Of a stretch of DNA of 64,000 bases, positions 23,628 to 26,732 are shown one piece after another. Below the pieces are notes generated by a model. The model was given only the letters and a program-made list of their open reading frames with translations. It made no database searches and was not told where the DNA came from. Position 1 is the stretch's first letter. Each line of letters begins with the position of its first letter. Source of the stretch: Candidatus Nitrosopumilus sp. (GTDB taxonomy: Archaea > Thermoproteota > Nitrososphaeria > Nitrososphaerales > Nitrosopumilaceae); contig JAEFCZ010000042.1 of the NCBI GenBank assembly GCA_016125975.1, positions 1-64,000 of the forward strand. Direction: 5' to 3'. The position numbers were made by a program, and so were the translations under genes.

Positions 23628-24935
23628 CTATTTTTTCTTTCTAAAGATTTCATCTTTTTCTTGTAATTCATCAGTGTATGTATCCATGTCTAACATGAAC
23701 TCTTCTTCATCAGAGTACGCAAACTCTGCATGTTCACTGATATCAAGACCAACATCTTCAACTTCAGGACTGACCCTGATTCCAATAAGATGTTTTATTA
23801 TCTGCATCAGTATCCATGTTCCACCAAATCCAATTGCAGCTGCAACAGCAACACCTACTCCTTGAATCCATAATTGATCAGGATTACCAAATAGTAATCC
23901 ATCTACTCCGCCAGGGTTAATCATAGTACTTGCAAAGATACCAATTGCAAGAGAGCCTACAATACCTGCAACGCCGTGGACTGAGCTGACATCAAGGGCA
24001 TCATCAATGTGTAATTTTTCTTTGAATAGAACCACACCAGAATAAGAGATTACACCAATTGCAACACCAATTACAAAGGCATGTTCAGCACTAACAAATC
24101 CAGATGCAGGTGTGATTCCAGCTAGTCCAGCAATTGCACCATTAATTGTAGCAACAACAGATGGTTTTCCTGTCCTTACCCATGAAAGTCCACCCCAAAT
24201 TAAGGCTGAAACTGATGAAGCCATGTGAGTTACGATTACAGTATTTCCTGCAACACCACCAGATGCTGCAAGTGCACTACCTGCATTAAATCCGAACCAT
24301 CCAAGCCAAAGTAAAGATGAACCTAAAACGGCAAGTGGAATACTATGAGGAATCATAATGGCAGGACCATAATTTCTTCTCTTTCCAAGTACGAGTGCTG
24401 CAGCTAAGGCTGCCATACCCACACTAGTGTGAATTACAATACCACCTGCAAAGTCTACAACTCCTAGTTGTGCTAACCAGCCACCTCCCCATACCCAGTG
24501 TACAAGAGGATAGTAGATCAAAGTAGACCATGCTGCGATAAATATGATAAATGAGCTGAACTTCATTCTTTCAGCAATTGTTCCTGTAAGAAGCAATGGA
24601 GCAATACATGCAAACATCAATTGGAATTTTACAAATAATACTCCAGGAATTGTTGGAGCATAATCTAGTGGACCGTCAGAAGGCACACCTTTGAGAAATA
24701 CCCAACTAGTATCACCAATAAGCCCCATAGTAGAATCACCAAATGATAAACTAAATCCAAAAACAAACCACATGACACTCAAAAGTGCTAAACCGAAAAA
24801 TATCTGCATGAAAATTGATGCTGCATTTTTCTTTCTAAGTAAACCAGATTCAAAAAGACCCAATGCGGGGATCATAAGCAATACAAGACTTCCAGCTACA
24901 AGCATCCACGCAGTATCACCAGAATCAAGTACCAT
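23628..24935 (-). CDS. amt: Ammonium transporter
   Basis: DTAWMLVAGSLVLLMIPALGLFESGLLRKKN, DFAGGIVIHTSVGMAALAAALVLGKR, SVHGVAGIVGSLAIG. Confidence 0.97.
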   Translation of the reverse strand: MVLDSGDTAWMLVAGSLVLLMIPALGLFESGLLRKKNAASIFMQIFFGLALLSVMWFVFGFSLSFGDSTMGLIGDTSWVFLKGVPSDGPLDYAPTIPGVLFVKFQLMFACIAPLLLTGTIAERMKFSSFIIFIAAWSTLIYYPLVHWVWGGGWLAQLGVVDFAGGIVIHTSVGMAALAAALVLGKRRNYGPAIMIPHSIPLAVLGSSLLWLGWFGFNAGSALAASGGVAGNTVIVTHMASSVSALIWGGLSWVRTGKPSVVATINGAIAGLAGITPASGFVSAEHAFVIGVAIGVISYSGVVLFKEKLHIDDALDVSSVHGVAGIVGSLAIGIFASTMINPGGVDGLLFGNPDQLWIQGVGVAVAAAIGFGGTWILMQIIKHLIGIRVSPEVEDVGLDISEHAEFAYSDEEEFMLDMDTYTDELQEKDEIFRKKK

Positions 24936-24986
24936 TGAAGAAAAAAATTATTTTTTTAATTAATAACAATATCCTAATTTGATTGT

Positions 24987-25003
24987 CAAATGATAATCAT
25001 TTG
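24987..25003. promoter_or_regulatory. Perfect inverted repeat in divergent amt/glnK promoter
   Basis: CAAATGAT-A-ATCATTTG. Confidence 0.65.
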
Positions 25004-25053
25004 GTATACAAAATCAGAAATTATATTTATCAAGTTGAAATTACAATTATCAA

Positions 25054-25383
25054 ATGCTCAAAATAGAAGCCATTCTTGGCGAAAATGACGTCATGGCAAT
25101 TAGTGAAGCACTCAAGAAGATCGGAATTGGAGGTCTTACAGTTACCAAAGTCAGAGGTAGAGGGAAAAGACCAGGTCCAGAAATTCACGCATCAAAAGGA
25201 AGTGAAATTTTTGTTCCACAGTTTAACGACAAATACTTTATCTCAGCCATCATTCAAGACTCAAAAGAAGACGAAGTGGTAAATATCATTAAAGAAAATG
25301 GTAGAATAGGTAAAATTTTTGTTTCACAAGTATTGCGCGCAGTAGATATTGCAACAGGCGATAAAGGCAAAGAAACAATCTAG
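25054..25383 (+). CDS. glnK: Nitrogen regulatory protein P-II
   Basis: MLKIEAILGENDVMAISEALKKIGIGGLTVTKVRGRGKRPG ... NGRIGKIFVSQVLRAVDIATGDKG. Confidence 0.96.
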   Translation: MLKIEAILGENDVMAISEALKKIGIGGLTVTKVRGRGKRPGPEIHASKGSEIFVPQFNDKYFISAIIQDSKEDEVVNIIKENGRIGKIFVSQVLRAVDIATGDKGKETI

Positions 25384-25392
25384 AGGATTATC

Positions 25393-25521
25393 ATGAATTT
25401 ACGTAAAAGCAAATTATTCCACAGAGAAAAGATGCAACCAATTAGACCTAAGGGCTATCCTAAGGTAGCTGCAATTGTAGGAATAATTGTTATACCACCG
25501 ATATTGTTACTAGTTATATGA
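25393..25521 (+). CDS. Small membrane protein (42 aa)
   Basis: Manual translation MNLRKSKLFHREKMQPIRPKGYPKVAAIVGIIVIPPILLLVI. Confidence 0.5.
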   Translation: MNLRKSKLFHREKMQPIRPKGYPKVAAIVGIIVIPPILLLVI

Positions 25522-25616
25522 AAACTTCTAAGAAGATCAGCATTGCAAAGTTGATAATGGCTGCAGTTGGTTTGACTTTGGTTGGATTGTGGTTATTCTC
25601 AGATTATATTTTCTAA
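25518..25616 (+). CDS. Small membrane protein (32 aa)
   Basis: Manual translation MKTSKKISIAKLIMAAVGLTLVGLWLFSDYIF; ATGA overlap with previous ORF. Confidence 0.5.
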   Translation: MKTSKKISIAKLIMAAVGLTLVGLWLFSDYIF

Positions 25617-25618
25617 AG

Positions 25619-26131
25619 TTAAAAATCTTCAAAATTGTTTTCATATACAATTGTAGGATTCTTTAGTTGTTTTTCTAACGTAGGTAATGATTTCATTATA
25701 CAATAATTTACAAAATCACTAAATGACTTTATTCTATAATCACTTCTAAGTGTGTCTTTGTTTTCTTCATAAATTACTTGTAGTTTATGTAAAGTGAATT
25801 TTTGTAAAGGAACAAATCTACTTCGTTTTGGCAAAGGTTTTGTTGTTTTATTTTCCTCAAAAGTAATTTCAAGATCTTGTTTACCGTCAATAGTTTCCAT
25901 GTCAACAACTTCTTCCATTTCAGAGACAAAGATTTTTCCACCATGTGTTGCAGACAAACCAGAATTTTTTGAAATCATTTCAACTACTTTTCGTGCATCT
26001 TTATCTGGAACAACTGTTTCAATTTTTGCAAGAGGGGTTGATTTGAGACCAGTTGAACCCACACGAGAACCTTTGGATTCATCATAGATGTTACTGTCTT
26101 CAAGATTTCGTTTATCAATAATATGTGCCAA
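25619..26131 (-). CDS. Half-PII-like protein with C-terminal extension
   Basis: KIETVVPDKDARKVVEMISKNSGLSATHGGKIFVSEMEEVVDMETIDG resembles the C-terminal half of PII; T-loop half absent. Confidence 0.6.
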   Translation of the reverse strand: MAHIIDKRNLEDSNIYDESKGSRVGSTGLKSTPLAKIETVVPDKDARKVVEMISKNSGLSATHGGKIFVSEMEEVVDMETIDGKQDLEITFEENKTTKPLPKRSRFVPLQKFTLHKLQVIYEENKDTLRSDYRIKSFSDFVNYCIMKSLPTLEKQLKNPTIVYENNFEDF

Positions 26132-26373
26132 CTGAATTCAAATGAGTTTTAATTGTAGGGAAATTCCTTCTCTTGATCACAGCTTCTATTTTTTTCACGA
26201 ATAATTTCAAAAAAAGAGGATATTTATGAGATTAGGCAATTATCATAGATAATATCAGATCGTATTCAAATCACATATTATGAATCAAAAATTTAGGCAT
26301 AAAATAAAGTGTAAAAAAATCAGCTAGAAAGATCAACAAAGCTCAAGTTAAAGACTAATAAAGTAATATACCG

Positions 26374-26385
26374 TACTGTACAGTA
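26374..26385. promoter_or_regulatory. Palindrome abutting the start codon of the next regulator gene
   Basis: TACTGTACAGTA, perfect 12 bp. Confidence 0.55.
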
Positions 26386-26732
26386 TGATGCGAGCAAGAC
26401 TAACATACGTACCACTTGAAGTGGCAGAACAATTCGGAGATTTCATAATCAAAAGAGATGAAGAGATTCTAGGTGCAGTTAAAGCAAGAACCAAGGATTA
26501 CAGTACACTATCTTTATTGAAATTATTGTATCAATTAAGAGGAAATCCAATGACATTTTCAGAATTGTATTCAAAATCAAAGATCAGAATGAAAAAGTCA
26601 TTTCTGAACTATCTACATCTATGTGTAGATTACAACTTTATCAAAAAAGAGGCAGTTGGATCAAATATGATCTATACAATAACAGAGAAAGGACATACAA
26701 TGCTAGGTCTATTTATGCAAAAAAATAATTAA
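26385..26732 (+). CDS. Winged-helix transcriptional regulator-like protein
   Basis: MTFSELYSKSKIRMKKSFLNYLHLCVDYNFIKKEAVGSNMIYTITEKGHTML. Confidence 0.7.
   Translation: MMRARLTYVPLEVAEQFGDFIIKRDEEILGAVKARTKDYSTLSLLKLLYQLRGNPMTFSELYSKSKIRMKKSFLNYLHLCVDYNFIKKEAVGSNMIYTITEKGHTMLGLFMQKNN

Follow-up and report, generated by a model that had tools for sequence, protein, structure and literature searches.

The window, that is, the whole 64,000-nucleotide stretch analysed, carries on its minus strand a gene that joins a PII domain to a conserved C-terminal domain and whose reading frame is broken in this assembly. It lies convergent with glnK, beyond which comes amt, as the initial annotation had stated. 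The features on which our argument rests are the following:

23628 to 24935, minus strand: amt, divergent from glnK
24980 to 24988, no strand assigned: candidate operator box 1, TGATTGTCA, one mismatch to TGATWATCA
24991 to 24999, no strand assigned: candidate operator box 2, TGATAATCA, exact
25002 to 25010, no strand assigned: degenerate box 3, TGGTATACA, three mismatches but in the 11-bp phase, and better preserved in relatives
25054 to 25383, plus strand: glnK, a PII protein of canonical size, convergent with the window gene (Pfam P-II, E 2e-15)
25619 to 26198, minus strand: the whole gene for PII plus C-terminal domain, frame-broken here, with its stop at 25619-25621 and a GTG start at 26198
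25622 to 25831, minus strand: conserved C-terminal domain (PKRSRFVPLQKFTLHKL...SFSDFVNYCI...) and tail, a putative DNA-binding domain like that of ribbon-helix-helix (RHH) proteins, with standalone relatives at loci L148 and L149
25832 to 26125, minus strand: remaining PII domain (Pfam P-II, AlphaFold model, Foldseek matches to GlnZ and GlnK2), running from strand 2 through the T-loop region, strand 3, helix B, strand 4 and a degenerate C-loop to a variable linker
26120 to 26127, minus strand: frame break, 2 nt fewer than in every compared relative (DNA alignments with 11 relatives, offset -2)
26121 to 26198, minus strand: PII strand 1 and helix A (VKKIEAVIKRRNFPTIKTHLNSVG...), overlooked in the initial annotation; over these 24 codons the ratio of silent to changing differences from the nearest relative is 6:2

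The open reading frame at 25619-26131 (minus strand), previously described as a 'half-PII' protein, is present, and its PII-like stretch is real: residues 22-78 match positions 38-98 of the 102 in Pfam P-II (E 3e-7, above the cut-off), and the best match to solved PII proteins reaches E 7e-5. The half-domain itself, however, is an appearance created by the 2-nt frame break in the window assembly. The frame is the rear part of a complete PII gene that has suffered a two-base deletion, and relatives carry the full domain. They stay open over about 193-196 aa, whereas the window pieces 26198-26121 and 26125-25622 lie in different frames; at the site of the deletion the window has GGCACATATTATTGAT, two bases shorter in the alignments with 11 relatives, which have GGCACATACATTATTGAT or similar. 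The TTG 'start' at 26131 is inside the gene and out of frame. Nor is the T-loop half missing, as had been supposed: the frame lacks no more than strand 1 and helix A, which are encoded just upstream in the other one, and the roughly 35 residues taken to be unrelated are the T-loop region (IIDKRNLEDSNIYDESKGSRVGSTGLKS). The gene's reading frame is about 25 residues longer in dozens of relatives, where it encodes a complete PII domain including the T-loop. Nearly all of the 33 relatives recovered in a scan of public genomes begin (M/V)KKIEAVIKRKNFPTIK..., as PII proteins classically do; the window keeps this start (VKKIEAVIKRRNFPTIKTHLNSVG, from the GTG at 26198), but in another frame. It is near certain that the gene encodes a complete PII domain with a C-terminal extension.

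The nearest relative (genome G048, locus L088) is intact, and its protein is 93% identical. Silent and changing differences from it number 6:2 in the 24 codons before the break and 30:10 in the 166 codons after it. Since the excess of silent change is equal on the two sides, the front part was constrained until very recently, and the break is either recent or an assembly error. The same equality rules out the remnant of an old truncation, and a programmed frameshift is unsupported, as the relatives have one continuous frame. The break is most simply read as an error of assembly or sequencing, and a recent mutation is possible; only if it is an assembly error is the gene of the window genome whole. 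Disturbed frames occur elsewhere too. In the same genome a further PII gene (L121, G000:C10:9321-9610) is frame-broken near its T-loop, at about 9467, where the G048 orthologue is intact, and contig C10 holds another broken frame besides it. In G044, a single-contig genome, the copy of the window gene at L056 has an in-frame TGA ahead of the last helix; the copy at L025 has a frame break in its N-terminal half; and in G110 (L074) the copy is split between PII and C-terminal domain. These three disrupted copies may be errors or may reflect recurrent loss.

Could the window locus, then, be a functionless pseudogene or an assembly error, the association of its family with the palindromic boxes described below being incidental? 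The deletion itself, the two broken frames among 15 on contig C10 and the different disruptions in L025 and G044 would fit such a reading. We nevertheless hold it to be very improbable: coding constraint is equal on both sides of the break, the window gene is the only one broken among the 20 syntenic frames of the window, and the break touches the window copy only, not the family. For draft genomes in general, the case carries a caution that an apparent half-domain may be a frame break.

Across 301 genomes (300 of the class and the window's own; gene counted at a match of E < 1e-15), the gene was found in 84; they belong to the window's family, where many genera have it, and to a second family of the order, f2. 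The intact protein has about 193 aa, with a full PII fold and a conserved C-terminal domain of about 65 aa. All 46 representative intact relatives match Pfam P-II (PF00543), and the intact nearest relative covers positions 1-98 of 102 (E 1.7e-10). Structure prediction with AlphaFold gives a PII fold (strands 2-9, 27-33, 57-64 and 90-94; helices 10-23 and 66-79) with a separate helical C-terminal domain, and the helical extension noticed at the outset is present; a Foldseek search of the PDB with this model returns GlnZ and GlnK2 at E of about 1e-6. Among viral contigs we found only two distant matches to the PII domain (residues 1-103), neither with the C-terminal domain.

In PII proteins ATP and 2-oxoglutarate are bound by a canonical set of residues, GxGxQ39, K58, K90 and R101/R103. 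Here the T-loop GxGxQ, K58 and the C-loop arginines are replaced, and only K90 and the B-loop SG are kept. The GlnK of the window likewise has no C-loop arginines, which indicates that the canonical ligand residues are not strictly required for PII membership in these archaea. Family match, modelled fold and Foldseek matches strongly support PII ancestry; judged from sequence and model, the gene product belongs to the PII proteins in both ancestry and fold, and its ligand site is altered. PII gene sets vary among these archaea (PMC7490402), and in Nitrososphaera viennensis five of six P-II proteins were detected (PMC12542715).

Of the loci that could be assessed, nearly all have glnK or another PII gene either convergent with the gene or no more than about 3 kb away from it, and amt is usually divergent from glnK. 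In genus g2 the gene sits beside another PII gene, away from amt, and in genus g22 of f2 it adjoins a PII gene and is divergent from amt. This comparison of gene neighbourhoods strongly supports the conserved linkage to amt and glnK that had been proposed. Between glnK and the gene (25392-25618) the window holds two very short reading frames that resemble small single-pass membrane peptides (MNLRKSKLFHREK...IIVIPPILLLVI and MKTSKKISIAKLIMAAVGLTLVGLWLFSDYIF). On the far side, a perfect palindrome, TACTGTACAGTA (26374-26385), lies at the very start of a small winged-helix-like gene (26385-26732).

The C-terminal domain is strongly conserved (KR-R-(F/L)VPLQK ... Y-IKSFSDFVN-CI), with invariant basic residues and an SFSDF motif. 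The linker that joins it to the PII domain is variable, and long in g22. The domain also occurs alone, at L148 and L149; the G170 standalone relative (L149:10178-10831) adjoins a small protein of similar pattern (MQINVDQEIADYFESMW...IPSFSEFMNDKL). Nearly every genome of the window's family encodes a further protein, of 132 aa (L145, L146, L147, L159; G048:C1:1688459 and others), whose N-terminal part (GFKSITVSETVYDKF...SFSGYVTYML) is RHH-like and whose C-terminal half contains cysteines (CQLCDEKDCVH); we found no Pfam family for it.

We hypothesize, on indirect evidence from profile comparisons, that the C-terminal domain is of the RHH type. By hhalign it matches the 132-aa relatives at 84%, and these match the VapB RHH family at 57%; the direct comparisons give 18% with VapB and 0.5% with NikR-type RHH, figures to be read against yardsticks of 6% for NikR-type RHH versus VapB, both undoubted RHH families, and 0.5% for a reversed control. 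Pfam RHH_5 matches one standalone relative at E 0.04. The model of the domain has confident helices at 9-23 and 37-57, separated by a short one, and no strand in the monomer. Direct scans of Pfam and NCBIfam with the domain gave chance-level matches only, a profile search of the PDB returned nothing significant, and Foldseek with the domain alone found no significant structural match in the PDB or viral sets. DNA binding by the domain is likewise hypothetical.

The divergent amt-glnK region supplies a candidate target. It carries a 9-bp palindrome, TGATWATCA, every 11 bp, mostly as two or three boxes. In all 41 amt-glnK intergenic regions from genomes with the gene (a few duplicates among them), the best match to the 20-mer TGATWATCANNTGATWATCA has 0-3 mismatches, and only 0.2% of shuffled sequences come as close as three mismatches or fewer. 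Counting from the glnK start codon, the last well-formed box usually ends 40-44 nt upstream, and about 54 nt upstream where box 3 is degenerate, as in the window. At L021, with eleven exact copies of the palindrome, and at G245:C101:59067-59185 the array has grown to some eleven perfect TGATTATCA boxes with 11-bp spacing. Genome G136 has three exact boxes 43 nt ahead of an amt gene and two ahead of a PII gene. Boxes or partial boxes also precede the gene's own start at L087, L079, L083 and L086, and in f2 (L073, more weakly L072); in most Nitrosopumilus, the window included, there is no box ahead of the gene itself.

Boxes and gene tend to occur together. The two-box pattern, searched at up to one mismatch across the 301 genomes, was found in 65, against none for a control pattern read backward. 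It is present in 56 of the 84 genomes with the gene and in 9 of the 217 without it (Fisher p of about 4e-30, which overstates the evidence, the genomes being related). Within genus g1 the counts are 30/45 with the gene and 0/27 without (p of about 2e-9, overstated for the same reason); those g1 genomes without the gene that were checked mostly have no such glnK either. Genus g8 is a stronger control than the genome-wide or the g1 counts: it has kept a divergent amt-glnK pair whose intergenic region is equal in size (about 113 bp), the gene is absent, and the motif occurs in none of 14 such regions; this control probably represents one evolutionary loss. In genus g2 the boxes are still found at amt-glnK with the gene elsewhere, about 244 kb away in G003. 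Two genomes with the gene, G083 and G091, have no motif genome-wide at up to two mismatches.

An account close to the initial annotation would make the divergent PII core a partner of GlnK, in mixed trimers or by contact with GlnK/Amt, and the tail a module for protein interaction or anchoring, with an unrelated regulator reading the boxes. Tight linkage to glnK or another PII gene, the degenerate ligand site and a tail that has no structural match to DNA-binding folds all suit it. We consider it unlikely, however, since g8 keeps amt-glnK while having neither gene nor boxes, and since boxes stand ahead of the gene itself in some lineages; together these two observations tie the gene to the boxes. 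The convergent orientation also disfavours a simple operon.

Our preferred explanation, which we regard as probable, is that a complete PII-family protein with a DNA-binding domain of about 65 aa, probably RHH, acts as a nitrogen- or energy-responsive regulator of amt-glnK transcription. We also incline, if only slightly, to the view that this PII-family protein is itself a sequence-specific DNA-binding transcription factor, sensing and DNA binding being combined in a single chain, that controls ammonium uptake genes of ammonia-oxidising archaea through a conserved array of palindromes spaced 11 bp apart; in this reading it would be the protein described here, and not another, that reads the boxes. 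With one TGATWATCA palindrome to each helical turn of 11 bp, dimers of the C-terminal domain would bind successive palindromes along a single face of the DNA, and the bound array would sit between the core promoters of amt and glnK, next to both. The PII core would join the subunits and relay a metabolic or GlnK-derived signal, which might be a nucleotide, 2-oxoglutarate, another ligand or GlnK; as most canonical PII ligand residues are lost, the ligand sensed is hard to predict. Activation is our guess for the sign of control, given that the boxes stop about 40-44 nt short of the glnK start codon and adjoin the proposed TATA element.

Several observations tell against such a regulator: the C-terminal domain alone has no structural or PDB sequence match and scores low with RHH families directly, the PII ligand residues are mostly replaced, G083 and G091 have the gene and no motif, and most Nitrosopumilus have no box ahead of the gene. 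Another regulator, lost together with the gene in g8, could also be the binder. In a related account, the protein would govern amt-glnK transcription through a separate DNA-binding protein, much as PII acts through PipX-NtcA in cyanobacteria. Known PII proteins do act on transcription in that way, and the same co-occurrence data would be explained. We judge it decidedly unlikely, given that no neighbouring regulator is conserved. The winged-helix-like gene at 26385 is unlikely to be the box reader, as it is missing from many other loci, including loci with boxes; so is the 132-aa RHH-like family, since g8 has this family but no boxes.

Few signal proteins are as widespread as PII proteins, which, as far as we know, act on transcription only via other proteins. 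If our preferred reading is true, a DNA-binding domain within a PII polypeptide would make an exception to that rule. Ammonia-oxidising archaea are major players in the nitrogen cycle, and to our knowledge the control of their ammonium uptake genes is largely undescribed. Our analysis names a candidate regulator and a candidate operator for these archaeal genes, and a single purified protein with a promoter fragment of 118 bp would suffice to put the question to the test. A literature search over the main texts of open papers found no description of a DNA-binding PII or of a TGATWATCA operator.

Several known systems invite comparison. The protein shares with the PII family (PF00543; GlnB/GlnK/GlnZ) the domain of two beta-alpha-beta units separated by a T-loop and the linkage to amt and glnK; unlike those proteins, it continues past a variable linker into a further domain of about 65 aa, and GxGxQ, K58 and the C-loop arginines are replaced. 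NikR is an RHH domain fused to an ACT-type ferredoxin-like sensor, and here too a ferredoxin-like ligand domain is joined to a putative RHH-type domain, but the domain order is reversed, the sensor is PII instead of ACT and the direct RHH profile match is that of 0.5%. The likely operator plan, with short palindromes in tandem one helical turn or less apart, recalls MetJ, an RHH repressor on tandem met boxes, which are short palindromes; the boxes here are instead TGATWATCA with an 11-bp period, the sensor is different and the promoter is archaeal. A KTITV...SFSD pattern in VapB antitoxins (PF02697, RHH) resembles the 132-aa relatives, whereas the direct match of the C-terminal domain is weak, its inter-helix region is longer and no toxin partner is seen. 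In the cyanobacterial PII-PipX-NtcA system PII likewise provides an input to transcription, but a separate DNA-binding protein is needed there, while here a putative DNA-binding domain lies within the PII polypeptide itself; we know of no other PII with a DNA-binding domain.
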